Origin: a virus
Strand: one strand, 5' to 3'
IMG/VR virus record: IMGVR_UViG_3300008111_001195
Span: 1-23,627 of that record
Length of the DNA: 23,627 nucleotides
Shown here: positions 1 through 23,627 of the stretch, in pieces
How positions within the stretch are numbered: position 1 is the stretch's first letter
How the letters are laid out: each line of letters begins with the position of its first letter
The notes under the pieces: model-generated
The model's database searches: none
What the model saw: the letters and a program-made list of their open reading frames with translations, nothing else
Told to the model about the DNA's origin: nothing
Made by a program: the position numbers and the translations under genes

Positions 1-318
1 ATACGGATCGTATGCGCCCATGGCAAGTTTTAAGAACAGCATAAACTTGTCACGGTTCTTATATTCGCCAATCTCAATACCTAGACGTTTAATTTCGTGG
101 TCATCTGGCAGTGCGTGATATTCTTCCAGTGCTTTAAACAACGGTTTGAATTCAAACTTGTATTGATCAACAGCCGCGGGCTTGACCATGTTGCCTTCTT
201 TCTTATGTTCTGCCAACACAAGTCCTTTACAAATTTCATAATGTAATGCTGAAAAGCCTTCTACATCAATGTGAAGGTCTAAGTTAATATAGGGTAAAGA
301 ATTTATTCCGCGGATCAT
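1..318 (-). CDS. Unknown protein, 5' part only (gene runs off the window)
   Basis: An open frame of 106 codons on the minus strand starts with ATG at 318 and is still open at base 1, so only the N-terminus is seen. An in-frame stop (TAG) lies upstream, and 318 is the first ATG after it. The protein begins MIRGINSLPYINLDLHID and continues with a mixed, soluble, lysine- and glutamate-containing sequence without a recognisable motif, signal peptide or membrane segment. Codon choice is like the minus-strand genes at the right of the window, not the plus-strand cassette next door. It diverges from the gene at 361 across a 42-base gap. I do not recognise the family and assign no function. No clear Shine-Dalgarno sequence precedes the ATG. 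Confidence 0.75.
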   Translation of the reverse strand, partial: MIRGINSLPYINLDLHIDVEGFSALHYEICKGLVLAEHKKEGNMVKPAAVDQYKFEFKPLFKALEEYHALPDDHEIKRLGIEIGEYKNRDKFMLFLKLAMGAYDPY

Positions 319-324
319 ATGGCC

Positions 325-332
325 TATAAATA
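325..332 (+). promoter_or_regulatory. T4-type late promoter motif TATAAATA
   Basis: The exact T4 late-promoter octamer TATAAATA lies 28 bases before the first gene of the plus-strand cassette. T4-like phages use this element with a phage sigma factor (gp55 type), and cyanophages use the related NATAAATA. A TATAAT hexamer follows at 341-346 but has no good -35 partner. I infer late transcription of the 361-6551 cassette from here; no other promoter candidate was seen ahead of the six genes. Confidence 0.55.
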
Positions 333-360: not shown

Positions 361-1056
361 ATGCTCGATACTTCAAACTGGAACTTATATTGGAACACTG
401 AAAACGGCGAAACTATTCGCGGCAATTTGGTTTATAGTTCTTATATTAGCCCAGACAGCAAACAATATTGTCAAAAGTTTCAGAGAGATATACGATACCA
501 TCCATTTGCAGAAGAAAATGCTCAATGGACTGATGCACTTTTAGAAGACAGATTTCGTCGAGAATTAAAATACCATGCCAGGGCAAAAGAAACAATGCCT
601 GTGTTAGAAATGATAGATGTAGACGAACCAAGTCGTACTATTGTGTATAACTGGCCAGGTGACGATTTTCTTATGCAAGGTATACAGGCAGGAAGTTATG
701 AAGCAGTATTACCTAATTGGCAAGAGCAATGGATCGAACGTATTAAAGAAATGCGTAGAGCAAACATTGTTAAATTAAGTCTGCATCCGAATAGTTGGAC
801 AGTACAACACGGAGTATTAGTTCCTCTAAATTGGTTCTATTGTTATGATGCTGATACAGGATATGATAGTTTTGCAAATATGAATATACAGATTAGCAGT
901 GGCCGTAGAGAGAATCTATATCCTATATTAAACACATATGGCATAGACTTTGACACTGACTATCCCGTTACAAAATTACAAATAATTGCGTTTAATAGTT
1001 TTCGTAAAAATTACCCAAACGAGTTAATAGATAAAATTTTAGAGGAAATACAATGA
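361..1056 (+). CDS. Degenerate kinase-like (APH/RIO-fold) protein, putative
   Basis: A 231-residue soluble protein heads the plus-strand cassette. It has kinase-like landmarks in the right order: a lysine in a strand (QKF, near 38-40), a helix with RREL (near 66-69), a hinge-like IVYNWPGDDFL (near 94-104), and a late block LSLHPNSWTVQ-H-GVLVPLNWF. That last block resembles the aminoglycoside-phosphotransferase catalytic loop (HxDxHPxN...vxlIDW), but the catalytic and metal-binding aspartates are replaced by Ser and Asn. The fold assignment is my inference from pattern only, and activity would be doubtful. The start codon ATG has no good Shine-Dalgarno sequence. The 3' end overlaps the next gene by 4 bases (ATGA), so the two are probably translationally coupled. 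Confidence 0.5.
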   Translation: MLDTSNWNLYWNTENGETIRGNLVYSSYISPDSKQYCQKFQRDIRYHPFAEENAQWTDALLEDRFRRELKYHARAKETMPVLEMIDVDEPSRTIVYNWPGDDFLMQGIQAGSYEAVLPNWQEQWIERIKEMRRANIVKLSLHPNSWTVQHGVLVPLNWFYCYDADTGYDSFANMNIQISSGRRENLYPILNTYGIDFDTDYPVTKLQIIAFNSFRKNYPNELIDKILEEIQ

Positions 1057-1766
1057 CTATAGCATGTATACCTGTTGACATTGATGTGTCGCTACCCGAC
1101 GAGCAGAAGATTTTAGATTATGTTCAAGCGCATCAGTTCCCGTCAATGTTACATTTACCAAGTCCGAGATTTGACCCGTGGATTGTTAGTCCAATACTTG
1201 GTCGTATGCCCAGCAAGGATTGGGCCGATCCTATTAAGATTCGTAATTTAATTTTTAATAGACAGAATCCCAATTATGGCGGCAAGTTAGAGTACGCCAA
1301 TGACTTTGATAAGTTGTTTCCTGAAGTTGTTGATATGATTAATCAAATACCTATTCTTAACCCTATTTGTATCTTTATGCAACAAACTGCACTATCGACA
1401 GCCCATGTAGATACACACGGTGCAAATGATATTAGGATTATTCCTAATTTATGGGGAATAGATACTGAACCCAAACGATATAATATTCAAATGACAAAGT
1501 TTCATTATCAAAGTTTCTTTGTTAGCAAGACTAGAGAAAGCGAACATATTCCTTATACACACGTTAGTAAAGAGTTACCAGCCTACGCTTTTTGTGAAGA
1601 TCACTATTTTCACGGAGCAGAATTTTGCGGAGTAGATAAAGTAAATCTGTGTTTCCTGGGAACACCTGACTGGCCCAAACACAATGCACTAATTAAACGA
1701 TCATTAGAAAAGCATAGAGATAAAGCAATTATATTTGAGGATGACAATGACTTTTTACACAACTGA
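1053..1766 (+). CDS. Double-stranded beta-helix (2-oxoglutarate/Fe(II) oxygenase-like) protein
   Basis: A 237-residue protein. Residues 109-200 carry an oxygenase-type metal site: HVD (H118, D120) after a strand, and a distal histidine in FHGAE (H187), followed by a terminal beta strand (KVNLCFLG). This HxD...H order is that of Fe(II)/2-oxoglutarate dioxygenases and the related aspartyl-hydroxylase group. I see no unambiguous 2-oxoglutarate-binding arginine, so the cosubstrate is uncertain. A GAGGA Shine-Dalgarno sequence sits 6 bases before ATG 1053. The gene overlaps its neighbour on each side (4 bases upstream, 20 bases downstream), which places it in one polycistronic unit with two radical SAM and two glycosyltransferase-like genes. 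A role hydroxylating a sugar or peptide made by that cluster is only an inference. Confidence 0.6.
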   Translation: MTIACIPVDIDVSLPDEQKILDYVQAHQFPSMLHLPSPRFDPWIVSPILGRMPSKDWADPIKIRNLIFNRQNPNYGGKLEYANDFDKLFPEVVDMINQIPILNPICIFMQQTALSTAHVDTHGANDIRIIPNLWGIDTEPKRYNIQMTKFHYQSFFVSKTRESEHIPYTHVSKELPAYAFCEDHYFHGAEFCGVDKVNLCFLGTPDWPKHNALIKRSLEKHRDKAIIFEDDNDFLHN

Positions 1767-2820
1767 TTTGATTGAAATTCAAATCGAAAACAGTAGCATT
1801 TGTAATGCTGCCTGTCCTCAGTGTATTAGAGAATTTAAAGAACCTACTAAGGCATGGCTAAATGAAACTTATCTAGACATATCTTTCTTTGAAAACATTC
1901 CAGACGAAGTTTATCAAAAATTAAAAATATTTTATTTTACAGGCAATATCGGCGACCCATGCACTGCACCTAATTTTTTAGAAGTGTGCAAATTTGTTAG
2001 AGCAAAAAATCCCGACATGTTTATTAAGATTAGCACTAACGGCGGAATGAAGACTCCCGACTTTTGGACACAGTTAGGAATTATACTTGGATCAAAGTCG
2101 GAAGTAGTGTTTGCCATAGACGGCCTGGAAGATACAAACCACATTTATAGAGTTAATGTAAAGTGGGACAAAGTAATAGCAAATGCCAGTGCGTTCATTG
2201 CAGCCGGCGGACAAGCATTTTGGCAATTTATTGCCTTCAAGCATAATCAACATCAGGTAGAACAGGCACGAACATTGGCAACAGAAATGGGCTTTGCTAA
2301 GTTTATGATGAAACCTAGTCATAGATTTGCATTAGATGCAGTACTTGGTGCAGAACGGTTTAACAACTCTGATACAAAGATTGAACCGCCGGATGATGCG
2401 TCATTAACACATACTGTGGTAATTGATAGAACTGCTAAAAATCTTAAAGAATTAAAAGAACAATCAAATACGTCCTGCATTGATTGCCATGTAAAAAATA
2501 CATATCAGAGCGTGTATATTGATCATCAAGGTAGACTGTGGCCGTGTTGTTATCTTGCCGCGGGCTTGTATGTAACGGATGGATTACCAACACACGATGG
2601 ATGGTTGGCATTATGGCGCACATACGGTGACGACAAGATTAATCTTAAAAATCACAAATGGCATGATATTTTAAGTGGCGGCTTCTTCAATGCTATACAA
2701 GATAGTTGGACAAAGGATTACAGTACTGGTCGAGTCATTACTTGTGCAATCACATGTAGTAAATTTCAAAGCCGTGTAAATATTCCTTCAGAGATGAATA
2801 GGATAATTGAGGAAGCATGA
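1747..2820 (+). CDS. Radical SAM protein with SPASM-like C-terminus
   Basis: A 357-residue radical SAM enzyme. The [4Fe-4S]-SAM motif CNAACPQC (C19, C23, C26, CxxxCxxC) follows a first strand IEIQIEN. The usual GGEP is replaced by TGNIGDP, and STNGG and FAIDGLED follow in the expected order. The C-terminal third holds cysteine clusters (CIDC, then WPCC after IDHQGRLW, then CAITC) typical of SPASM auxiliary iron-sulfur domains. SPASM enzymes act on peptides or sugars; the substrate here is unknown. I chose ATG 1747 because GAGG lies 6 bases upstream. Two further in-frame starts (TTG 1735, ATG 1741) are possible. It overlaps the preceding gene by 20 bases and the next by 4. Confidence 0.85.
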   Translation: MTFYTTDLIEIQIENSSICNAACPQCIREFKEPTKAWLNETYLDISFFENIPDEVYQKLKIFYFTGNIGDPCTAPNFLEVCKFVRAKNPDMFIKISTNGGMKTPDFWTQLGIILGSKSEVVFAIDGLEDTNHIYRVNVKWDKVIANASAFIAAGGQAFWQFIAFKHNQHQVEQARTLATEMGFAKFMMKPSHRFALDAVLGAERFNNSDTKIEPPDDASLTHTVVIDRTAKNLKELKEQSNTSCIDCHVKNTYQSVYIDHQGRLWPCCYLAAGLYVTDGLPTHDGWLALWRTYGDDKINLKNHKWHDILSGGFFNAIQDSWTKDYSTGRVITCAITCSKFQSRVNIPSEMNRIIEEA

Positions 2821-4151
2821 TGTATCAAGATGGGTATAGTCCTACTGCGTATGATAAAGTTATTCTATATGAGCGATTGTTTATCGATGATGATCGTCCT
2901 TCTATAATCTTATCAGATGGCACTAGAGTGTTCGACGAAGATTCTGCATACTATTTTCATTTCTATAAATGGGCATTGCAACCAACTTGGATTGATCAGG
3001 AACTGACACCTCACATGATATTCGGATCTAAAGGTTATATTCCCCAACTTGAGTCTAGACAGTTTGATACAAACACTATTGATTATCTAAACAAACATGG
3101 ACTTAATATCTATCTATATGAAGTTTTGTCATTTACAAAGTGTCTAATCGATCGTCCTATATTTGCTATTAGCAAGAACAGTGGGTTGATAGATACTCTC
3201 AATAAGCATTATAGCGAGTCTATGTTGGGCGAATGCCACCAAGACAACTATACAGATTTAAAATGTTACGAATTAGAATCTATAAATCTGTTTGCTAAAA
3301 ACAATAATCTGACCAATGTAAACGTTCACACTTGTCATTATAATATAGGATTTATACAAGACAAATATCCCAACATTAATTTATTTTGCAAAGACTTACA
3401 TCTAGCAAGCATGGTAGATTACCCCGAAGAAGATGTTTATCAGTTTCAAAAAATAGAATCTGTAAATTTGATAGAAAAAAAGTTTATATCGCCTAACTGG
3501 AGATATCACAGTGCCAGACATTTATTAATGACTTATCTTATTGACAAGTCGGGGATATACTCTTGGTATTACAAGAGCAATGTAAAAGGTTTACAATCTA
3601 ATCTGTGGTTTAATTTATCTGAGTCAAAATTGAATTCCGTAGTAGAAGCAGGGTTACCACTACTTAATCAATCTGCTCCTTTAGAAATAAATTGTAAACA
3701 AGAAATTAATACTATAAATGGTAAATCGGAATATCTAAAATATCCAGGCGGCACCCAAGGCGCTCCGGGAGATTATCGCATGGACGAAGCATACTTAAAG
3801 TGTTTTTGTGCAGTAGTAACTGAAAGTTTCTTTGCTATGCCTACTGGCATTGTCAGCGAAAAAGTACTTAATGCTATCAAATTAGGAAGGCCATTTGTAC
3901 TCGTAGCACCTCCTAGAACACTAGAGTACATGCACAAACTTGGATTTCAAACATTTGGTAGGTACTGGGACGAGGAATATGACATAGAGTCTAATCACGA
4001 ACAACGCATGATAAAGATCTTAGCAGTACTGGACTATATCAATAGTATGAGCATAGACGAACTCAAAGTATGGTATTCTAATATGAAAGATATTTTAGAC
4101 CATAATGTTAGTGTGCTGAACAGTCTCAAAGAGCCTGGTAATATATTATGA
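2817..4151 (+). CDS. Glycosyltransferase-like protein, paralogue 1
   Basis: A 444-residue soluble protein closely related to the gene at 5211-6551: both share a middle block NWRY...R-H...DKS...SWYY and a long C-terminal block. The C-terminus (about 340-420) reads VTES...SEKVLNAIKLGRPFVLVA...LEYMHKLGFQTF...WDEEYD, which resembles the donor-binding end of a GT-B glycosyltransferase-like family found in marine phages and cyanobacteria (SEK...PF...GS-L..L...GF.TF...DE.YD). Donor and acceptor are unknown. No membrane segment is visible. Start: ATG 2817 and ATG 2820 are adjacent after GAGG; the second has the more usual spacing of 7. The gene overlaps the radical SAM genes on both sides by about 4 bases, so it is likely a partner of one of them. 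Confidence 0.65.
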   Translation: MMYQDGYSPTAYDKVILYERLFIDDDRPSIILSDGTRVFDEDSAYYFHFYKWALQPTWIDQELTPHMIFGSKGYIPQLESRQFDTNTIDYLNKHGLNIYLYEVLSFTKCLIDRPIFAISKNSGLIDTLNKHYSESMLGECHQDNYTDLKCYELESINLFAKNNNLTNVNVHTCHYNIGFIQDKYPNINLFCKDLHLASMVDYPEEDVYQFQKIESVNLIEKKFISPNWRYHSARHLLMTYLIDKSGIYSWYYKSNVKGLQSNLWFNLSESKLNSVVEAGLPLLNQSAPLEINCKQEINTINGKSEYLKYPGGTQGAPGDYRMDEAYLKCFCAVVTESFFAMPTGIVSEKVLNAIKLGRPFVLVAPPRTLEYMHKLGFQTFGRYWDEEYDIESNHEQRMIKILAVLDYINSMSIDELKVWYSNMKDILDHNVSVLNSLKEPGNIL

Positions 4152-5227
4152 CATGGTGCCCGTTTCCATTTAGAAGTGTAATGGTCAAAACCGATGGTCA
4201 TATTACTACATGTTGCTATGGAAAAAATATACCAGGCATTACCAGAGATGTCTATACAATTAATCAAGCATTTGACACTAAAGAATTTAGTCAAATACGA
4301 GAAAATTTATCCAATGGTATTAAAGATAGTAACTGTCAAAAATGTTGGGACTTAGAAGCACAGGGTATAGAAAGTTTAAGGCAACAAGAAATTCGTACTG
4401 AAGAGTTCTCTTTAGACATAAAAACTAATCCTAGAGTTGAATATTTGTTTCTGAGTCTTAGTAATCAGTGTAATTTAAAATGCAGAACTTGTAGTCCCAC
4501 TGACAGTAGTTTTTGGATTAAAGAATATGAACAGATTCACGGAGTTAAACAAGCAATATATTTAGAACCAGATGACAGCAAATTTTTCTCAAGTTTTAAA
4601 ATAGACACATTACCTTATCTAAAAGAGATAGCATTTACTGGTGGTGAACCATTGATGATGAAAAGTGTACATCGTATTCTTGAAACTTTAGATCCCAATG
4701 TGTCTTTAACATTCTATACTAATGGCACAATATATAATCCCAATATCCTAAATAAATTTGTCGATGTTAATCTTGCAGTTAGTATAGATGGTATAGGTAA
4801 ACGATTTGAATATTTAAGACATCCTGCACAATGGGATCTAGTGTTAGACAATTTAAAATTAATGGGCGACAAATTAAAAGCAATTACGTGTACAGTTAGT
4901 GCTTATAATGTTTGGTATATAGATGAAGTTGCAGACTTGGCAAAACAATTCAATGTTGAGTTCATGGCTCATATATTGTTTGAACCCAACAATTTATCTA
5001 TTATGTCATTGCCTCGTGATGTTAGAATAACAACCGCAAATAAACTAAGTTCTAGTAATAATCAACAGATTTTAAAAATAGTTGATTATTTACAATCCCC
5101 GCAAGAGTATGATTACAGTAAGTTTGTTGACGAAGTCACTATACGAGATCAAGTTAGAAATGAAAGTTTTAAAGATATATTTCCAGAATTTTATCAAATA
5201 ATATTAAGTCATGACAAAACAATTTAA
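4148..5227 (+). CDS. Radical SAM protein with N-terminal SPASM/twitch-type domain
   Basis: A 359-residue radical SAM enzyme with an unusual domain order. The N-terminus carries the cysteines of an auxiliary cluster domain (C4 in WCPFPF, C22-C23 after KTDGHI, and CQKC at 63-66). The core follows with CNLKCRTC (C108, C112, C115), TGGEP (164-168), YTNG and VSIDG. A twitch or SPASM module placed before the core is known in the group annotated as twitch-domain radical SAM proteins, common in marine phage and picocyanobacterial contigs; their substrates are undefined. ATG 4148 overlaps the previous stop as ATGA, and the 3' end overlaps the second glycosyltransferase-like gene by 17 bases. The radical SAM plus transferase pairing thus repeats that at 1747-4151, but with a different radical SAM subtype. 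Confidence 0.87.
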   Translation: MTWCPFPFRSVMVKTDGHITTCCYGKNIPGITRDVYTINQAFDTKEFSQIRENLSNGIKDSNCQKCWDLEAQGIESLRQQEIRTEEFSLDIKTNPRVEYLFLSLSNQCNLKCRTCSPTDSSFWIKEYEQIHGVKQAIYLEPDDSKFFSSFKIDTLPYLKEIAFTGGEPLMMKSVHRILETLDPNVSLTFYTNGTIYNPNILNKFVDVNLAVSIDGIGKRFEYLRHPAQWDLVLDNLKLMGDKLKAITCTVSAYNVWYIDEVADLAKQFNVEFMAHILFEPNNLSIMSLPRDVRITTANKLSSSNNQQILKIVDYLQSPQEYDYSKFVDEVTIRDQVRNESFKDIFPEFYQIILSHDKTI

Positions 5228-6551
5228 CGAACGTGATGAAACTTATTTTTGTGTGGTATATGAAAATCTATACCCCCAAATCTGCGGAACAAGAAATTTA
5301 TTATTAGAAGATGGTACTGTATTCAACGAACACAATATTACAGAGTCGTATTCTTTTTTCAATTACTATGACGATTACTATAGAGATACTATTCTAGATA
5401 AAGAAACAGACCCGCATTTGCTATATACCGGCATGGGATCTATCAAGCAATTTGAAACATTACAGTATCCTAATGATACAGTCAATTATCTAAACAGTGT
5501 GGGTCTAAAGATTTATCTATATGAAACTACTGTAGTTGATCTATTACCTGCAAAAAAATTCTATGTAAGTCAAAATAAAGAATATAGTGCAGACTATCTA
5601 CAGTTTAGATTTGAATCCGATAAAGATTTCTATGTACTTGAATTTGAAAGTATAGAACAGTTTGTAACACGCAACAAATTAACCAATGTTACTGTTTATA
5701 CATGTGAAGGCAATACTTTTAGTGTTGCTACTCGATACGGGTTCGACATTAAAAGCAAAGAGATATTTTTAGTATCACTATTAAAAGAAACCGATAAAGA
5801 TATCAACGGATACGAAATCAGCAATAAACTAGTTGAAAGTTTTGATCCCGATATTATCACACATAAATTTTGGTTAGGTAATTGGAGATATGATGTGCAT
5901 AGGCATGTACTTTGTGCATATATGGCTGACAAGTCTGTAAAGATGTCTTGGTATTATAATTCAACATTTGATGATGTTAAACAGTTCTTTTGGTTCGACA
6001 TACACGCATGGAAGCAAATAAATCCCGACATGTATGTTAAGTTGATCGACGGTGTTAATTTATTAAATGCTAACACGCCATGGGTATTAGATATTAAAGC
6101 ACCTGCTATCCCTGTAGCACTAGATCAAATGTGGACCATACCTACAGAAGAATTTTATTGTCCTAGTAGTTCATCTACGCCCTATGACTCATATGTTAAT
6201 AGTTTCTGTGCCATAGTAACTGAAAGTAACTTTGCACATCCTTTTCCTATGTTTAGTGAAAAAGTCATTAATGCAATGAAAGCAGGCCGGCCATTTATTG
6301 TTGCTAGTAGTGCAGGCACATTAGAGTACTTACGCCAACACGGATTTAAAACGTTTAGTGAATTCTGGGACGAAAGTTATGATCTAGAAGTAAACCACGA
6401 ACTACGTTTACAAAAGATAATAAAGTTAATTGACTACATTGATAGTATGAACATAGACGAACTTAAAATACTATACTTAAAAATAAAGCCAACGATCGAA
6501 TATAACTTTCGTTGGCTTAAAGAAATACGAGATAAAGACTTGAGTTTTTAA
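5211..6551 (+). CDS. Glycosyltransferase-like protein, paralogue 2
   Basis: A 446-residue protein, almost the same length as the product of 2817-4151 and alignable along much of it. Shared blocks include YLN..GL.IYLYE, LTNV.V.TC, NWRY...RH.L...DKS...SWYY and the C-terminal VTES..A...SEKV.NA...GRPF...TLEY...GF.TF..FWDE.YD...NHE.R. The last block resembles GT-B transferase C-termini, so I infer a glycosyltransferase of unknown specificity. It ends the plus-strand cassette: its TAA overlaps the thyA stop on the other strand by 4 bases, with no plus-strand terminator. The last 70 bases also contain the hairpin that appears to terminate thyA, so this coding end carries a second, antisense constraint. 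Confidence 0.65.
   Translation: MTKQFNERDETYFCVVYENLYPQICGTRNLLLEDGTVFNEHNITESYSFFNYYDDYYRDTILDKETDPHLLYTGMGSIKQFETLQYPNDTVNYLNSVGLKIYLYETTVVDLLPAKKFYVSQNKEYSADYLQFRFESDKDFYVLEFESIEQFVTRNKLTNVTVYTCEGNTFSVATRYGFDIKSKEIFLVSLLKETDKDINGYEISNKLVESFDPDIITHKFWLGNWRYDVHRHVLCAYMADKSVKMSWYYNSTFDDVKQFFWFDIHAWKQINPDMYVKLIDGVNLLNANTPWVLDIKAPAIPVALDQMWTIPTEEFYCPSSSSTPYDSYVNSFCAIVTESNFAHPFPMFSEKVINAMKAGRPFIVASSAGTLEYLRQHGFKTFSEFWDESYDLEVNHELRLQKIIKLIDYIDSMNIDELKILYLKIKPTIEYNFRWLKEIRDKDLSF
6478..6518 (-). terminator. Rho-independent terminator of the thyA unit, inside the opposing gene
   Basis: A perfect 10-bp inverted repeat (AAGCCAACGA at 6486-6495, TCGTTGGCTT at 6509-6518) with a 13-base loop. On the minus strand it is followed by a T-rich run (TTTATTTTTAAG). 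It starts about 30 bases after the thyA stop. On the plus strand no T-run follows, so it points one way only. It lies wholly within the coding end of 5211-6551. Confidence 0.75.
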
Positions 6552-7444
6552 ACTGCCATCTCTGCTTTGATTGCAGGATGTGGATCGTATTTTTCTAATA
6601 CAAAATCTTTCAAAACATACTCGTTCCACTTCTTGTTTACTGTCATAAACAATGTAGGAAGTGCTCGTTCTTCTCTAGCAAGTTGTTCTTTGACTGCATC
6701 AACGTGATTAGTGTATATATGGCAGTCTCCACCGGTCCAAACAAAGTCTCCCACCTTTAAACCGCACTCGCGAGCGATGATGTGTGTAAGCAATGAATAA
6801 CTGGCAATGTTAAAAGGCACACCTAGAAACATATCACAACTACGCTGATATAACTGACAACTCAAATATCCGTCTGTTACGTCAAACTGACTTAATATAT
6901 GACAAGGAGGCAAAGCCATTTGATCTAGTTCTGCAGGATTCCATGCTGTCATAATATGTCTACGACCACTTGGATCTTTCTTAATACCGTCAATCAAATT
7001 TTGCAACTGATCGATATCGTGTCGGTCAGTGGCAATTCTAGTACCGCCTAAGTGGGCAGGACCCATATCTTTTTGTTCAACATACTTGCGCCAGTGCCGC
7101 CATTGTACTCCGTATACTCGTCCAAGGTCGCCTTCGAATTCTGCGTTAGGCTTCCAATAATCTGCATCGGCATTTGCTGACCAGATTGTTTTCTTTTCCG
7201 GATCACTTGTACTGTGAAGAATCTCAGCAAGTCTACGTTCATCACCGCTGCCTTCTAGAAACCACAACAGTTCGGAAACAACGGATTTCCATGCCAATCG
7301 CTTGGTAGTGACTGCGGGAAAGCCTAGTCTGAGATCGAAACGCATTTGATGTCCAAATACGCTAATAGTGCCTACACCTGTACGATCAGTCTTCTGTTTT
7401 CCGTTTTGTAGAATGTGCTCTAGTGCTTGATGGTATTGTTTCAT
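6548..7444 (-). CDS. thyA: Thymidylate synthase
   Basis: A 298-residue ThyA-type enzyme making dTMP from dUMP with methylene-tetrahydrofolate. Visible motifs: DRTGVGT with phosphate-binding R21, the SELLWFLEGS strand, GRVYGVQWR, DPSGRRH, the catalytic cysteine in LPPCH (C181), the QRSCD...GVPFNIASY substrate block, and HIYTNH. The length and an insertion of roughly 35 residues before C181 relative to E. coli (C146) are usual for some bacterial and phage enzymes. The N-terminus MKQYHQALEHIL matches the normal family start, so ATG 7444 is secure although no strong Shine-Dalgarno precedes it; translation is probably coupled to folA. The gene ends head-on against the plus-strand cassette. With folA it recycles folate during phage DNA synthesis. 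Confidence 0.97.
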   Translation of the reverse strand: MKQYHQALEHILQNGKQKTDRTGVGTISVFGHQMRFDLRLGFPAVTTKRLAWKSVVSELLWFLEGSGDERRLAEILHSTSDPEKKTIWSANADADYWKPNAEFEGDLGRVYGVQWRHWRKYVEQKDMGPAHLGGTRIATDRHDIDQLQNLIDGIKKDPSGRRHIMTAWNPAELDQMALPPCHILSQFDVTDGYLSCQLYQRSCDMFLGVPFNIASYSLLTHIIARECGLKVGDFVWTGGDCHIYTNHVDAVKEQLAREERALPTLFMTVNKKWNEYVLKDFVLEKYDPHPAIKAEMAV

Positions 7445-15058: not shown

Positions 15059-15852
15059 CACACCAATCCGAGATCTTTCCGAATTTTTGTAGCACTAATA
15101 TCTGTAACAGCATCGTCAAATGTTTCTTCCCCGCTAGTATAACCAACGCCTCGTCCCCAGCCAATATGTACAATGTTAGGAACAACTTGTATTTCATATT
15201 GTCCTTGGTACAATGGATCTAGATCACGTCGGATAAAACTTTTAACTTTTGCTACTTCGAACGGATTGCTTCCTTGCCATCCTTGAACATCACGTACCTG
15301 AATAATTACCTGTCCAGTCTTGTCTAACAATCTTTCAAATAACGCACGATGTCCGTCGTGCCACGGTTGCCAACGACCTAGCATTTGCACTGTTTCTTTC
15401 TTCCAATCAAACACAGGTCGTCTACGGTTATCTATAATGTGTGCGGCAATAAACTCACTCCACTTTTCTGCCTTTTGTTCAGTGATGCGGAAGTCATATA
15501 CTTCGGGTTCTACAAACATAGCGTTGGTATCTGCATAGCGACCTTCACGGATAGTGTCGACCCATACAGTCCAATCTGCTTTAAAGTTATTTCTCATCTC
15601 AACCAACGGAGCAACGAAATCACAAATGACAAAATCCATATCAGTCATAGCATCTGCTAGATCACGCATACGTTTGCTTTGACGGATGCGCCCGGCTTCG
15701 CTAAAATCCCAGTCATCGTATTTTTTACGTACATCGTCGGCATTCAACCAACCAACTTTTTTCTTCTCTGCTTGCAGATGATCAACAATATGCTGTGCCA
15801 GATAAGTTTTGCCAGCACCTGGCAATCCCATCACTAGTATCTTTTTAGTCAT
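15058..15852 (-). CDS. Bifunctional APS-kinase-like / nucleotidyltransferase-like protein
   Basis: A 264-residue fusion. Residues 1-125 resemble adenylylsulfate kinase: P-loop GLPGAGKT (9-16), a LNADDVRKKYDDWDFS block corresponding to the DGDNVR...LGFS region, and VICDFVAP. Residues 155-264 resemble cytidylyltransferase/NMN-adenylyltransferase enzymes: GRWQPWHDGH (159-168) with the HxGH signature and SATKIRK near the end, matching the (S/T)xTxxR-type motif. The combination suggests phosphorylation of a small molecule followed by transfer of a nucleotide, but the substrate is not evident; the N-terminal half need not act on APS. ATG 15852 overlaps the queE stop (TAATG) and follows GGGGA; the longer frame to 15864 lacks support. 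Confidence 0.82.
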   Translation of the reverse strand: MTKKILVMGLPGAGKTYLAQHIVDHLQAEKKKVGWLNADDVRKKYDDWDFSEAGRIRQSKRMRDLADAMTDMDFVICDFVAPLVEMRNNFKADWTVWVDTIREGRYADTNAMFVEPEVYDFRITEQKAEKWSEFIAAHIIDNRRRPVFDWKKETVQMLGRWQPWHDGHRALFERLLDKTGQVIIQVRDVQGWQGSNPFEVAKVKSFIRRDLDPLYQGQYEIQVVPNIVHIGWGRGVGYTSGEETFDDAVTDISATKIRKDLGLV

Positions 15853-16718
15853 TAAGTTCCCCATTCATTTTTAAATAATGGCACTTGCAATCTATCACTG
15901 TAACGTAACCCGTGCTTCATAGCCATGTCTGCCACTCGACGATTGTTTAGTGCATAAACACTTTCCACACCACCTACTGGCATTAGATAAACGTGTCCTT
16001 GAAATCCTGCTTTTCGGTATGCGGCAATGGCACATTCAGCATCAGCAAAATCTTGTTCTGTGGCAATAACAAATTTCAAATATGCTGTACCATATTCTTC
16101 ATATTCACATACCACTTCTGGGAGAATTGCTTCTTCCCACTTCTCGCCACTACACGGAAGTTTTGCACTGACACTAAATGTAATCTCGCGCCAAAAGTCT
16201 TTGTCGTGATGGCTTTTCCATTGATGCAAGTAAGCGGCAAATTCTGGTGTTAGTTTTTGAGTGCCATTTGTTTCGAAAGTAATTTCTTTAAGACCTTGCA
16301 TCTTGGGATGATCTAATAATTCTGGATAAGCACGTTGCCAGCCTAGCAAAGGCTCGCCACCTGTGATAACTAGATGTTCGTCTCGCCATTCTCCAAATGG
16401 AATAATTTCCGCAATTCTGTCGGCGATTGCTTCTGTAGTGAGCATTGGACTAAGATCCTTAAAATCAGGATGCCAACTAGCATAACTATCACAGCCCGTA
16501 GAAACCAAAGGAAGTTCTTCATATTTGTGAAATGCCTCAATCATAGTATGTGTGGCCGCAATGTCTGTGGCTTCGTGACTTACCTCACCACGCGGCATAC
16601 CAAAGCCGGCACATTTAAAGTTACAACCAAATGTGCGTAGAAACACACTCGGGACGCCCATGTAGCGTCCTTCTCCTTGGATACTGTAAAACAGTTCCGC
16701 AATTTTAATTTTACTCAT
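15852..16718 (-). CDS. queE: 7-carboxy-7-deazaguanine synthase, variant cluster motif
   Basis: A 288-residue radical SAM enzyme that forms the 7-deazaguanine ring from carboxy-tetrahydropterin on the way to preQ0. Evidence: the N-terminus IAELFYSIQGEGRYMGVPSVFLR (QueE signature FxSIQGEG), TGGEP (120-124), ETNGT and SVSAKL. The cluster-binding cysteines are unusual: C32 and C36 (GCNFKC) are normal, but the third is not at 39 (Phe); it appears 40 residues on as C76 in TGCDSYASW, giving CX3C-X39-C with the CDS tripeptide kept. A shorter displacement is known in one bacterial QueE. folE lies three genes upstream. ATG 16718 overlaps the previous stop (ATGA). Confidence 0.92.
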   Translation of the reverse strand: MSKIKIAELFYSIQGEGRYMGVPSVFLRTFGCNFKCAGFGMPRGEVSHEATDIAATHTMIEAFHKYEELPLVSTGCDSYASWHPDFKDLSPMLTTEAIADRIAEIIPFGEWRDEHLVITGGEPLLGWQRAYPELLDHPKMQGLKEITFETNGTQKLTPEFAAYLHQWKSHHDKDFWREITFSVSAKLPCSGEKWEEAILPEVVCEYEEYGTAYLKFVIATEQDFADAECAIAAYRKAGFQGHVYLMPVGGVESVYALNNRRVADMAMKHGLRYSDRLQVPLFKNEWGT

Positions 16719-17407: not shown

Positions 17408-18238
17408 TTATCTTGGCGCAAAGTCTTGTTGGAGTTTAATGTTATCAAAAAACTCTTTCTTTGTATTGCCGTCTGTATTGAATGCACCTTTAAGCACAGT
17501 AGTCTGTGTCAAACTAGAGTGTGCCATAATGCCGCGATTCTCGCAACACCCGTGTACTGCTTGAACATACACACCTACGTTCTCGCTTCCTGTTGCTCGC
17601 ATTATTTCGCGGGCAATGTCATTGCAGAGTTCTTCTTGTAGTGTGCCACGTCTAGCACACCATTGTGCAATGCGTGTGTACTTTGAAAGGCCAATTAGTT
17701 TTTCTGCCGCAATAATGCCAATATAAGCAACCCCAGCAACGGGTTGGTGATGATGACTACACATACTACGAAGTTCACTGCGAACCACGAGCATACCTTC
17801 GTAACGGTCTGCTGAATCATTTGGAAATGCTGTTGCGTCTGGTGCTGGTTCATATCTTCCTGCCATTATTTCGTTAAAGTACATCTTGGCCAGCCTACGT
17901 GCTGTGCCTTTTGAGTTGGGGTCGTTTTCACGGTCGATGAGCAATGTATCTAGCACTTGTTCAAATGCAAGTGTTGCTTCGTCGATTAGTCGTTCTAAGT
18001 CGCCTTCGTGCAAGTAGTCACTGACGTTATCGCCTGCCCAGAAACGTTTATTTTCACGTTTCATTCTAGCACGAATATTAGCGCCAAGGTATCCTTCTTG
18101 ATAACCGCCATCGCCTGCCATGGCATCTAGTCCGGTTTCTTTTTTAACGTACACTTCTTTCTTTAAAGGTACATATTCTTCTGCTTTAAATTCTGGTGCA
18201 GATTTAAGTGCAGGATCTGGTTTAAATTCTGTTGTCAA
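17408..18238 (-). CDS. folE: GTP cyclohydrolase I with N-terminal extension
   Basis: A 276-residue FolE, which converts GTP to dihydroneopterin triphosphate, the entry to folate and to 7-deazaguanine synthesis. The catalytic core (about 80-260) shows DPNSKGTARRLAKMY, the zinc and catalytic residues SMCSHHHQP (C160, H162, H163), the LIGLSKYTRI block, and HGCCENRGI (H229, second zinc cysteine C231, RG). About 75 residues precede the core, longer than usual in bacteria, rich in Lys, Glu and Pro with a conserved-looking AGDGGYQEGYLG stretch. The start is TTG at 18238 with GGAG 8 bases upstream; no ATG occurs before residue 40 (Met40). A sigma-70 promoter stands upstream. Paired with queE, a preQ0 role is likelier than folate supply. 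Confidence 0.95.
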   Translation of the reverse strand: MTTEFKPDPALKSAPEFKAEEYVPLKKEVYVKKETGLDAMAGDGGYQEGYLGANIRARMKRENKRFWAGDNVSDYLHEGDLERLIDEATLAFEQVLDTLLIDRENDPNSKGTARRLAKMYFNEIMAGRYEPAPDATAFPNDSADRYEGMLVVRSELRSMCSHHHQPVAGVAYIGIIAAEKLIGLSKYTRIAQWCARRGTLQEELCNDIAREIMRATGSENVGVYVQAVHGCCENRGIMAHSSLTQTTVLKGAFNTDGNTKKEFFDNIKLQQDFAPR

Positions 18239-20237: not shown

Positions 20238-20605
20238 CATTCATCTCCTTTAATTGCTTCGAATGTTCTATACTTTGCCAAAGCCTTGATATAGTCGTCA
20301 TACATCTTTTTAAGTTTTGGATGTTTAGACTCTAGTTTAACATCTCTCTCGGGAATAGTCAATACTTGTTCGATTGTCTTTAGCCGTTCTTCTAAGTCAA
20401 CACCGTTGATAACCATATTACCGTTGACTTCTATAGTGGCTGGGTTTGTTTGATTAATCTTCATTACGGTGTCATACGGATTAGAGGAACTAGTAGCCCA
20501 ATTAGACGCACCAGTTCCGGTAGTAGTATAAACTTGTCCAACAGTTAACGGTGCTGTAGTATATACAGGAGGAACAGCACCGTACCCGGGCTGTTTAACC
20601 CCCAA
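20237..20605 (-). CDS. Unknown phage protein, Thr/Gly/Tyr-rich head and helical tail
   Basis: A 122-residue protein. The first half is Thr, Tyr, Gly and Pro rich (PPVYTTAPLTVGQVYTTTGT) and looks like a flexible or beta-structural element. A short VNGNMVINGVDLEERL follows, then a helical tail (ERLKTIEQVLTIPERD and LKKMYDDYIKALAKYRTFEA) with coiled-coil potential. The LEERLKTIE...IPERD pattern recalls structural-type proteins of T4-like cyanophages, from memory only. I chose TTG 20605 because GGAG lies 7 bases upstream; the longer frame from ATG 20662 would overlap the amidinotransferase by 68 bases with no ribosome site. An 11-base overlap with that gene remains. Confidence 0.62.
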   Translation of the reverse strand: MGVKQPGYGAVPPVYTTAPLTVGQVYTTTGTGASNWATSSSNPYDTVMKINQTNPATIEVNGNMVINGVDLEERLKTIEQVLTIPERDVKLESKHPKLKKMYDDYIKALAKYRTFEAIKGDE

Positions 20606-21656
20606 AATAACTCTCCAAGGAGCCTTTACGTTTGACGTCCAATGTTTGGCAATGGAATCCACCGCTCATTGTACGTGCTTGACGTTGTGGTAATCCAATA
20701 GTTTCAATACCATGCTTTGCCAAAACTCTACGCATGACATCCTGATCCTTGTCTATGATAACTAGATTTGGATTAACACTCAGCATGTTCATACCGATCC
20801 AAGGACTGCATGGAGGAATGCCGCCCGGTAATTGTGTTGGAGCAGTGTACATCATTTCGGGAGTGATCCAAATCTTATCCCAGTCTTTGAAAATCTGTGG
20901 GTAATGATCTTCCCGTAGTCTTGCTCCATTGAACGCAACTAGGCCTGGACGCAATGGAATAACCGTTGAGTCAAAGTGTGCAAAGAAGTAAAAGCCTTCT
21001 GCCAAGTGTAGTTTATAGCCACGCTTTTCAACAATGTTCTTCATCCACTGGTAACCTTTAAGCGTACCTGTATTAGACACTTGATACAATAAATCTTTAC
21101 CCAGTCGCACAACATTAGGTGCTTCCCAGATAATCTCGTGATTGTTAACAGTGGGCTTGCTTAGGTCTTCCACTTGATACAAGTCGTCTAGCAAAATAGG
21201 CTTGGGTGCTGAAATCCATTCTACGCCTTCTTCCACTTGCTGTGTTAGGTAGTCGTAGTAAGCACGACTTTCGTATTGACGGCAACGGCCTGGACTTGCT
21301 GCCTCTAGTACAAGATTATCTAAGGGTAATAACAAGTCTCTGGGACAGAATGTATACCAGCCAGTTGTAGTCCAATCTGGACTGCTAAACTCTTTACTAT
21401 GATCAACACTCTTAGGACGATGTACTTTAACACCCAGCCCTTTAAGTGTGTCAGCAAGTGTTTCTAAGTCTTCATTTGCTTCATCGCGGATGCGTTGGTC
21501 ATGTGGACCTTGCAGTACTTGTAATTCTTCTAATGTGTATTCTGCGTAACTAAACGCTTGTACTGCTTTACTCATTGTGGGTAACATTGAGTGGTCTGCG
21601 GTACCTACGATGATCTCCTCTAATGGATCCCAATCGTTATGTGAGCAAATTGCCAT
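20595..21656 (-). CDS. Glycine amidinotransferase-like enzyme
   Basis: A 353-residue member of the AGAT/inosamine-phosphate amidinotransferase family, which moves an amidino group from arginine to an amine. Family features: N-terminal WDPLEEIIVG, PRDLLL (105-110) with EAAS (118-121), AHFDST-VIPLRPG (H227 catalytic, D229 of the HxD motif), and the nucleophile C336 in SGGFHCQTLDVKRKG. Length fits the family. The acceptor amine is unknown: glycine, ornithine, an aminocyclitol or an amino sugar are all possible. AGGA sits 5 bases before ATG 21656. The gene overlaps the PLP enzyme upstream by 20 bases, so an amine formed by that enzyme may be the acceptor (inference). Confidence 0.9.
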   Translation of the reverse strand: MAICSHNDWDPLEEIIVGTADHSMLPTMSKAVQAFSYAEYTLEELQVLQGPHDQRIRDEANEDLETLADTLKGLGVKVHRPKSVDHSKEFSSPDWTTTGWYTFCPRDLLLPLDNLVLEAASPGRCRQYESRAYYDYLTQQVEEGVEWISAPKPILLDDLYQVEDLSKPTVNNHEIIWEAPNVVRLGKDLLYQVSNTGTLKGYQWMKNIVEKRGYKLHLAEGFYFFAHFDSTVIPLRPGLVAFNGARLREDHYPQIFKDWDKIWITPEMMYTAPTQLPGGIPPCSPWIGMNMLSVNPNLVIIDKDQDVMRRVLAKHGIETIGLPQRQARTMSGGFHCQTLDVKRKGSLESYFGG

Positions 21657-22575
21657 ATTCTTCCTTTATTATGTTTATGAATTCATCTTTATCTAGATGT
21701 AGATACTTGTGGAAACTCAATCGATTCATTGGGCCTCCACGATTGTATTCTTGCCACTTACTGTCTCCTAGTGCAAACATTACAGTATTAGAAGGTTCTA
21801 ATCCTAATAGACCGGCAAATTCTATTTGCTTGTGTTTGTAGTTGACCGTAATGTAGTCTGGTGAAAATTGTTGTAAAAAATAACTACCTAGTTTTGCACC
21901 GTACTTGTTATTATAACTTCTATACTGGTAAACAAACAATGGGTCGTCATCATTTATTCTTGTCAAACGCATACCTACTCTTGCGTGTGCAATAGGAAAA
22001 TACTTGCTGACACTAAATGCAAGATCTGTAATACATGGGTATGTAAAGTCGTAGACTATATTTGAACTGATACCATAATAGGCACAATCAATTAGTACAG
22101 GTATTCCTAGATGAGTACATTTTTCCATTAACCATTCGTAGGAATCATGTTCATTACCAGTGTCAGCAAATGGGAAACTAATAACCACAGCATCGTTGGC
22201 GTCTAACAAGTCGTCTTCTAGATATTTCCAATTAGGCCAACTGTTACGCCACGCTAGTTGATGATACATGTACTCACCTTTGAAACAACGGAATCTACGT
22301 GTGTGATTCCGCATGTAGAATTTATCAAAGGCCTCCGTAGTTCCTGCACTGAATACTGAATGTTTAAAATCTTCTATGCCACTAAATCTACTTAGGCTAG
22401 TACTTTTGATCCATGTCAGGTACTGCTCACAGAACTCATCTGTGGTATACTTGCCAAAGAAGGTATGTTCGTTATATGCTTGGTAGGACACTAAGGCATT
22501 TATAAACTCAGGGTCTTGTATAGCAAAGGCACCACCTAGTGTTTTGTCACGATGGTCATAGGTAATCTTAACCAT
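21637..22575 (-). CDS. PLP-dependent aminotransferase-like (fold type I) protein
   Basis: A 312-residue protein with a compact aminotransferase core: GTTEAF (78-83, phosphate or substrate loop), a strand-plus-loop SFPFADTG (133-140) where class I enzymes have PNNPTG, ID-CAYYG (D163, the pyridine-nitrogen aspartate position), and SVSKYFP (K191, the Schiff-base lysine) followed by VGMRL (R203). It is shorter than typical aminotransferases (about 380-420) because the N-terminal and C-terminal small-domain parts are reduced. Substrate unknown. ATG 22575 overlaps the upstream gene by 8 bases. Adjacent amidinotransferase and oxygenase-like genes suggest a small biosynthetic module. Confidence 0.8.
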   Translation of the reverse strand: MVKITYDHRDKTLGGAFAIQDPEFINALVSYQAYNEHTFFGKYTTDEFCEQYLTWIKSTSLSRFSGIEDFKHSVFSAGTTEAFDKFYMRNHTRRFRCFKGEYMYHQLAWRNSWPNWKYLEDDLLDANDAVVISFPFADTGNEHDSYEWLMEKCTHLGIPVLIDCAYYGISSNIVYDFTYPCITDLAFSVSKYFPIAHARVGMRLTRINDDDPLFVYQYRSYNNKYGAKLGSYFLQQFSPDYITVNYKHKQIEFAGLLGLEPSNTVMFALGDSKWQEYNRGGPMNRLSFHKYLHLDKDEFINIIKEEYGNLLT

Positions 22576-23173
22576 ACAGATAAGTTACCTGCATGACTGT
22601 GAAATCTTCAATGCCAAAGTTTGCGGCACCGTGCCATGTATCGCCCGTCCATGTAAAAACATCGCCTGCGTTCCAATCAGAGTAAACAGTTGCTCCAATT
22701 TGTAATACTTGACCAAACGACCAATCTGTTAGCATAACAGCCGAACGTTGAATATCTTTGTGACGCTTTGCATCAATATTATTATGTTTAACAAATGTGG
22801 CGTAACTATCAAAGTGCCAGAAACTTACATGTCCTGGTGTAATTTTAAGAAAATTATAATGCTTCTTTCCAGCATCGAATGAATCATATGCTTTTTGTAA
22901 ACCTGAACTTAGTTCGGGAGCAAGACACATATAATGCAGGGTTGGCTCTTTGGGTACACGCCACTCTGCGTATAAATCTTCTAATTGTAGTTTTAAATCT
23001 GTAGCATGAGTGTCCCATTTGTCTTCTTTTGGCACTTCATGTGTTTGATAAGTTTCTAACCATTCAAACGACAAAAGGTCCTCGTGGGACCATGTTACAG
23101 GAACTGAAGTGCGTATGCCTCCAGTTTTCTGCCAGTTCTTAAATCCTTTAGATTCAAGTAACGGATTTTGCAT
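22568..23173 (-). CDS. 2-oxoglutarate/Fe(II)-oxygenase-like protein
   Basis: A 201-residue protein with an N-terminal helical part and a C-terminal double-stranded beta helix. The iron ligands expected for a dioxygenase are HFD (H120, D122) in SFWHFDSYATF and H181 in TGDTWHGAANFG, with a strand VMQVTYLYG at the end. An arginine (R143 in QRSAVMLTDW) lies before the central strands; the exact 2-oxoglutarate-binding residue is not clear. The AGDVFTWTGDTWHGAANFG stretch is very like the end of many phage DSBH oxygenases and of prolyl-hydroxylase relatives. ATG 23173 overlaps the cupin gene by 20 bases. Substrate unknown. Confidence 0.72.
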   Translation of the reverse strand: MQNPLLESKGFKNWQKTGGIRTSVPVTWSHEDLLSFEWLETYQTHEVPKEDKWDTHATDLKLQLEDLYAEWRVPKEPTLHYMCLAPELSSGLQKAYDSFDAGKKHYNFLKITPGHVSFWHFDSYATFVKHNNIDAKRHKDIQRSAVMLTDWSFGQVLQIGATVYSDWNAGDVFTWTGDTWHGAANFGIEDFTVMQVTYLYG

Positions 23174-23627
23174 TTTTCTTATCCTCTAGATATTGTTCGT
23201 GTTGCACCCACTGGTTATTTACAAGAAAACCCCATTCACGCTTGTGAGGTCCTGGCATAAACATAGTCCAACATTCAACAGCAGGGTCTAGTTCGATTCT
23301 GTGATAACTATTGGCACTACATGTTCTAAAATGTCCGGGACCACACCATTTGGCAATTTCGCCAATTTTTCGACCTTGTGAATCGAACTGCGGGCGCCAT
23401 TCCCAGTAGCCGCCTTTTAAAATTAAAGTAGCGTAAGGCCATGGATGATCGTGTACATCATCTGGATCACTCTTTAGAAACTTATGGATGAATACATTGA
23501 ATGGGAACCAACTACGTTCCTTGAGAAAAATATAATAACGTTCTAGGTACGGTTCGTTTGATTCACGATCCATGATAATACGTTTACGACCTAGTCGTTC
23601 TAGCAAATGTAAAAATGCTTTAATCAT
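23154..23627 (-). CDS. Cupin-fold protein
   Basis: A 157-residue protein whose ATG occupies the last three bases of the window, so the true start could lie further upstream; the N-terminus (MIKAFLHLLERLGRKRIIMD) reads like a complete one. A cupin metal site is visible: DVHDHPWPYATLILKGGYWE (H59, H61) corresponds to cupin motif 1, and SANSYHRIEL (H109) to motif 2. Such proteins often bind sugars or metals or act as dioxygenases or epimerase-like enzymes; the exact activity cannot be told. It heads the visible part of the right-end tailoring block and overlaps the oxygenase-like gene by 20 bases. Confidence 0.78.
   Translation of the reverse strand: MIKAFLHLLERLGRKRIIMDRESNEPYLERYYIFLKERSWFPFNVFIHKFLKSDPDDVHDHPWPYATLILKGGYWEWRPQFDSQGRKIGEIAKWCGPGHFRTCSANSYHRIELDPAVECWTMFMPGPHKREWGFLVNNQWVQHEQYLEDKKNAKSVT

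Follow-up and report, generated by a model that had tools for sequence, protein, structure and literature searches.

The genes p1 to p6 lie at the left end of the window, by which we mean the whole 23.6-kb IMG/VR virus record analysed here (W in comparisons). We consider it fairly probable that they contribute an exchangeable module for tailoring a glycan or glycoconjugate, located in a large biosynthetic island of an uncultured tailed phage.

Gene layout and borders

Positions 361-6551 of the plus strand hold six ORFs (231, 237, 361 or 356, 444, 359 and 446 aa), each overlapping the next by 4-17 bases counting from ATG starts, or by 32 bases for p3 from its TTG start. Minus-strand genes, a 2OG-oxygenase-like gene (u9) and thyA, form both flanks (Table 1), and these coordinates bear out the layout given in the initial annotation. 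The u9 product is 82-96% identical to its relatives, and thyA is the conserved right border of a variable p4-p6 insert. The six genes do not stand together by chance, because the same order recurs on other viral contigs and all comparisons gave a dN well below dS. The overlaps leave no room for a precursor-peptide gene within p1-p6, in agreement with its absence from the initial annotation. No RiPP-specific partner was recognised and a RiPP cluster was rejected.

The sequence TATAAATA is found once in the window (both strands scanned), in the AT-rich gap just upstream of p1. It is kept in contigs A, B and L083, and contigs D, E and G have ATAAATA instead. It was considered as a candidate late promoter, for which the evidence is weak.

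Other genes in the window include dhfr beside thyA and genes for a 5'-3' exonuclease-like protein, a QueE-like protein and a FolE-like protein. The QueE-like and FolE-like genes (15855-16718 and 17411-18238) suggest 7-deazaguanine metabolism in the phage. The closest cultured relatives of a MoxR-like ATPase (52%) are jumbo Pseudomonas phages, e.g., PA5oct. The product of 15061-15864 combines an N-terminal adenylylsulfate-kinase-like domain with a C-terminal part resembling a nucleotidyltransferase, and similar proteins recur in the islands of relatives (L111, L146).

Table 1. Features of the cassette, its borders and the right end of the window (window positions).
Feature	Position	Strand	Assignment	Basis or remark
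u9	1..318	-	2OG-oxygenase-like, 5' part, cut at window end	begins MIRGINSLPYINLD; core gene; matches L090:7811-8587
TATAAATA	325..332	+	like T4 late-promoter box	28 bases upstream of p1; weak evidence
p1	361..1056	+	protein-kinase-fold, pseudokinase-like	predicted model and alignment of 22 sequences
p2	1053..1766	+	putative Fe/2OG oxygenase	H118-x-D120...H187
p3	1735..2820	+	radical SAM, SPASM-like	TTG start 1735, more likely ATG 1750; wider-core member
p4	2817..4151	+	glycosyltransferase-like protein A	GT-B inferred via 35% identical paralogue p6
p5	4148..5227	+	N-terminal-twitch radical SAM, exchangeable allele	NF033640
p6	5211..6551	+	GT-B glycosyltransferase-like protein B	model; two allele classes among relatives
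thyA	6548..7444	-	genuine thymidylate synthase	TIGR03284 348.5 bits, NF002497 359.3 bits
w7	20595..21656	-	StrB-like inosamine-phosphate amidinotransferase homologue	1bwd E 1.2e-84, 288 bits
w8	21637..22575	-	PLP-aminotransferase-like (weak)	NCBIfam E 6e-4; resembles core u5 by eye
w9	22568..23173	-	2OG-oxygenase-like	resembles domain fused to p4-like glycosyltransferases (by eye)
w10	23154..23627	-	cupin, cysteine-dioxygenase-like, cut at window end	phrog_4786 E 3e-38

Conserved core and variable insert

The six-gene order is kept in six viral lineages (W, A/B, C, D, E/F and G) with protein identity of 36-94%, so that the six genes are found together elsewhere, as the initial annotation had anticipated. 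A is contig 3300042691_022332, C is 3300017978_000188, D is 3300046820_000462, E is 3300032323_000739 and G is 3300017917_000784. B is the same virus as A, cut at p5; F is identical to E in the shared genes, with p1 cut. In C, p1 is cut by the contig end. G carries a DegT gene and an amidinotransferase gene inserted between p4 and p5.

More than a dozen further contigs have p1 and p3 adjacent or nearly so, together with upstream genes from the u4-u9 set (radical SAM, PLP-like and 2OG-like), and p4-p6 were not found on these contigs within the DNA fetched. Since p1 and p3 occur without p4-p6 on so many contigs, p1-p6 is not a natural unit; the six-gene module of the initial annotation was rejected, and p1 and p3 were assigned to a wider core. 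This core comprises p1, p3, further radical SAM genes, a PLP-enzyme-like gene and two oxygenase-like genes (u4-u9). It was reconstructed from relatives, and the window holds only its edge (u9). Accordingly, p1 and p3 are core genes, p2 comes and goes, and p4-p5-p6 is an exchangeable insert between p3 and thyA in one clade. Cultured phages in INPHARED gave no match to p1, p2 or p6. A small protein with a weak match to ATE_C (C-terminal part of an arginyl-tRNA-protein transferase; L090:1487-1951) is conserved upstream of the cassette.

Core and tailoring proteins of the cassette

The p1 model (pLDDT 93.2) matches the folds of RIOK3 (Z 12.9), PRPK (12.8) and Rio1 (12.7). Catalytic positions were assigned via the secondary structure of the model. 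In the 22-sequence alignment the HRD Asp is replaced by N/S144 (loop HPN or HPS, 142-144), the DFG Asp position is an invariant N157, and the VAIK Lys (residue 39) is not conserved. The kinase fold is present and the canonical residues of an active kinase (HRD Asp, DFG Asp, VAIK Lys) are replaced, therefore we call p1 pseudokinase-like; the earlier term kinase-like fits its fold and not its catalytic residues.

The predicted metal triad of p2 (H118, D120 and H187) is invariant in 8/8 sequences. Profile searches and sequence searches of solved structures matched p2 to neither a family model nor a structure, and its earlier description as oxygenase-like is retained with the HxD...H motif as the sole basis. 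Against solved structures, sequence searches with p1, p2 and p4/p6 gave nothing credible. In contig 3300008262_003234, p2 is shortened to 180 aa (L086:10693-11235) by a frameshift or a sequencing error; it is whole in the near-identical contig A.

The radical SAM proteins p3 and p5 differ from each other, as originally described: p3 has C-terminal SPASM-like cysteines and p5 is an N-twitch protein. p3 contains an invariant CxxxCxxC motif (C18, C22, C25) and C-terminal cysteines C246, C266, C267, C332 and C336. Its Pfam scores are below gathering (PF04055, 20.3 vs 29.5 bits; SPASM, 12.5 vs 21.5 bits), and its NCBIfam scores (W_rSAM_matur 51 bits, mycofactocin 27 bits) are far below cut-off. By cysteine pattern and these sub-threshold matches, p3 is classified as a divergent radical SAM/SPASM member. 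p5 passes NF033640 with 266.6 bits (cut-off 170). No description of twitch radical SAM proteins in phages was found in the literature searched (most subscription journals were outside its scope).

The glycosyltransferase family of p4 and p6

p4 and p6 share 35% identity over 434 columns, which confirms that radical SAM and transferase-like genes occur twice and that the transferases are paralogues. The structure of p6 was predicted with AlphaFold2 from an alignment with 22 relatives (pLDDT 85.7). The top VIA matches of the model are GT-B enzymes: T4 beta-glucosyltransferase (BGT; Z 11.6, rmsd 4.9 over 266), alpha-1,3-fucosyltransferase (FucT; Z 10.2) and exostosin-1 (EXT1; Z 10.0). The expectation that the transferases would resemble known glycosyltransferases in structure was thus upheld for p6. 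Plain Foldseek gave weak PDB matches (best E 2.8e-3) and strong matches to many uncharacterised proteins of uncultured Caudovirales. We conclude that p6, from its model, and p4, from homology to p6, are predicted GT-B proteins.

p6 shares its fold with GT-B enzymes such as T4 BGT, GT10 fucosyltransferase and the exostosins, but has no sequence match to solved structures. The p4/p6 family is unmatched in Pfam and PHROGs, and none of 22 members has a Pfam glycosyltransferase match. A search of the window for CAZy GT10 (Pfam PF00852) was empty and its positive control was equally silent. An SEK motif after a conserved E in the family recalls what we take to be the TEK motif of GT10. Bacterial relatives were not found in genome contigs scanned with short peptide patterns, a scan that does not prove their absence.

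In the glycosyltransferase (GT) tree, p4 clusters with GTs of other viruses, apart from p6 (support 95/93). Some of the GTs grouping with p4 carry an N-terminal oxygenase-like domain, for which the best weak Pfam match is PF05118 (Asp_Arg_Hydrox; E 0.003). A local duplication of the GT gene was therefore rejected, as p4 groups with these fused-domain GTs and not with p6. The topology argues against a recent local event and suggests that the pair is old, or else that p4 and p6 were brought together from different lineages. The fused proteins are L016:7419-9137, L018:7377-9104, L019:8758-10542, L020:7374-9155, L021:7518-9242 and L024:7470-9128; an amidinotransferase is adjacent in five of the six.

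Allele exchange at the p4-p6 insert

Pairwise identities divide p5 into allele classes {W,C} and {A,D} and p6 into classes {W,A} and {C,D}. Every one of the four possible p5/p6 allele combinations is represented, in sequences that are all metagenome contigs and in which assembly chimerism could produce allele combinations. The p5 tree rejects W+A (delta lnL 180, p about 1e-5) and the p6 tree rejects W+C (delta lnL 288), so that the comparison of transferase and radical SAM trees proposed in the initial annotation ends in decisive conflict. When DNA identity is scanned along the sequence, the switch falls at the p5/p6 junction, at about 5150-5250. E and G differ little in u9, p3, thyA and dhfr (95-98% identity) and much more in p1 (65%), p2 (52%), p4 (36%), p5 (53%) and p6 (46%). 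From the conflicting trees, the breakpoint and the low dN relative to dS, the p4-p6 variants look like functional alleles replaced by recombination. The initial annotation had proposed a block duplication of the transferase with exchange of the radical SAM partner. The exchange stands, as a recent event that proceeds by allele replacement; the local duplication does not.

Island context and amidination genes

For w7, the closest solved structure is StrB of streptomycin biosynthesis (1bwd), with 288 bits vs 178 for glycine amidinotransferase. Its orthologues are 97-98% identical in three related contigs, and w7 probably belongs to the same chemical programme as the cassette. A 31% homologue of w9 lies beside the cassette in contig G.

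Contig E (89 kb) has tail-fibre genes at about 25-31 kb, followed by an island of about 45 kb. Along it come genes for GTs, for SGNH-hydrolase-like proteins (identified by eye), for a sugar nucleotidyltransferase and a 4,6-dehydratase-like epimerase, for a short DegT-family aminotransferase (only 195 aa) and for an amidinotransferase, with more radical SAM genes before the cassette. The sugar-nucleotide genes sit on the contigs of relatives, outside the 23.6-kb window fragment. Each related contig has 7-15 radical SAM genes. Several contigs that are more distant but share the GT or p3 family carry the T4-type capsid gene gp23, which was not seen on the fragments of near relatives.

Among 61 GT-family loci, the GT adjoins a radical SAM gene 36 times (15.4 in shuffles) and an amidinotransferase gene 10 times (4.3 in shuffles), and DegT-amidinotransferase-GT is a recurrent run. 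The short DegT aminotransferase (about 195-215 aa, roughly half the usual length; L146:14438-15022, L016, L018-L021, L023, L024, L098) is conserved near an amidinotransferase in many of these phages. A sugar-phosphate cyclase (L146:987-2045) is found in 5/5 near relatives, outside the window fragment; it scores 262 bits with 4p53, which we take to be the valiolone-type cyclase ValA, vs 146 bits with the DHQ synthase 6lk2. A valiolone synthase in phages was not described in the literature covered, which likewise excluded most subscription journals.

Comparison with known phage modules

Interchangeable radical SAM/amidinotransferase modules of phages are already known: Timms et al. (2010, PMC2853527) described one in the Campylobacter phages CP220 and CPt10, in which an amidinotransferase accompanies five radical SAM genes. 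As presented there, these T4-like phages have radical SAM/amidinotransferase clusters that differ as a block between close relatives. Our locus behaves likewise: a block is replaced while its flanks stay nearly identical, and an amidinotransferase occurs along with several radical SAM genes. F379 is similar in having a nucleotide-sugar transferase gene in the same run and tail genes nearby. The modules differ in that no p1, p2 or p6 homologue was found in the CP220/CPt10 type, its p3 counterpart is only about 23% identical, and GT-B pairs and allele-level shuffling are absent from the accessible description (PMC2853527).

Pelagimyophages have hypervariable host-recognition clusters with tail-fibre genes and glycosyltransferases, and two genomes differ by radical SAM cassettes, according to the part of the report available (Zaragoza-Solas et al., 2020, PMC7029224). 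In that part, however, GT8 is dominant, and the p1/p3/u4-u9 core and the GT-radical SAM-GT insert do not appear. In Synechococcus phage S-SCSM2R (PQ898602) a single run combines GTs with a short aminotransferase, an amidinotransferase, 2OG oxygenases and a radical SAM gene, but some of its GTs are annotated as GT2 and GT25 and there is no p6-family match. The locus goes beyond the known modules in four respects: its GT-B family is unmatched in Pfam/PHROGs, its core is defined, one partner is pseudokinase-like, and the shuffling of its alleles has been mapped.

Proposed role and alternative explanations

We show the anatomy of the locus, its conserved gene order, the two folds (GT-B and kinase), co-occurrence, and both purifying selection and the exchange of alleles; the activities, donor, acceptor, step order and purpose of the cassette are inferred, as follows. 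The core radical SAM, oxygenase-like and PLP-like proteins would make or edit a building block together with p1 and p3. p4 and p6 would take sugar units from nucleotide sugars and attach them, and the product would be edited with radical and oxygen chemistry by p5 and p2. An amidinated amino sugar is the probable sugar, because members of the GT family repeatedly lie in an operon-like run beside genes for a sugar aminotransferase and a StrB-like amidinotransferase. Most likely the product would be a modified glycan at the surface of the virion or of the host, and allele swaps would alter its structure. On our best reading, allele exchange diversifies the product, as expected of surface structures under selection. 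The initial annotation had suggested a decorated glycan or small molecule; this remains the best inference and is strengthened by the sugar-nucleotide, aminotransferase and amidinotransferase genes of the same island. Several findings go against the surface-glycan reading. A GT-B fold leaves the substrate unfixed, and the enzyme that matches best is a DNA glucosyltransferase; p1 is without kinase catalytic residues and p2 without a family match; the sugar-nucleotide genes come from contigs of relatives; the tail-fibre genes are about 45 kb away from the cassette; and most of the evidence also suits a small-molecule product.

The island might produce a diffusible small molecule (e.g., a guanidinylated aminocyclitol or pseudo-sugar) to which the GTs add sugar, a proposal that we regard as rather unlikely. 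The cyclase of the near relatives, w7, the recurrent DegT-amidinotransferase-GT modules and a tryptophan-halogenase-like protein in L120 (by eye) are all consistent with it. No resistance or export gene was recognised, however, tail-fibre genes adjoin the island, allele replacement is more typical of surface structures, and the cyclase lies outside the window fragment. A full route can also be drawn, as a proposal somewhat more doubtful still: a valiolone-type cyclase, the short DegT aminotransferase, the StrB-like amidinotransferase, a kinase, the GT-B enzymes and radical SAM and 2OG tailoring could yield a guanidinylated C7-cyclitol or pseudo-amino-sugar that would be linked to glycans of the virion or host and varied as GT and radical SAM alleles are swapped.

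Hypermodification of phage DNA, with p4 and p6 as DNA-base glucosyltransferases, is kept only as a low rival since thyA, with DHFR beside it, is a real thymidylate synthase and not a recognised hydroxymethylase. T4 BGT as the closest fold match, the position of thyA next to the cassette and the 7-deazaguanine chemistry suggested elsewhere in the window speak for this explanation, but FucT and exostosin match p6 nearly as well, and genes for amidinotransferases and sugar aminotransferases accompany the GT family. Just as improbable is a protein or peptide target, of virion or host origin, that the radical SAM and oxygenase proteins would modify and the GTs would glycosylate. p3 does resemble SPASM-type maturases, at the sub-cut-off scores given above, and tail proteins are present in the island of E; against this stand the lack of space for a precursor ORF and of a RiPP-specific partner.

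Phage islands that combine glycan and radical SAM genes are known and little understood. The locus offers testable chemistry: its core is conserved, its exchangeable insert is defined and the breakpoints are mapped, and an aminotransferase-amidinotransferase-GT module recurs. If the surface-glycan reading holds, phages would make and vary unusual amidinated sugars via oxygen and radical chemistry, which would bear on phage-host recognition and help in finding new glycan enzymes.
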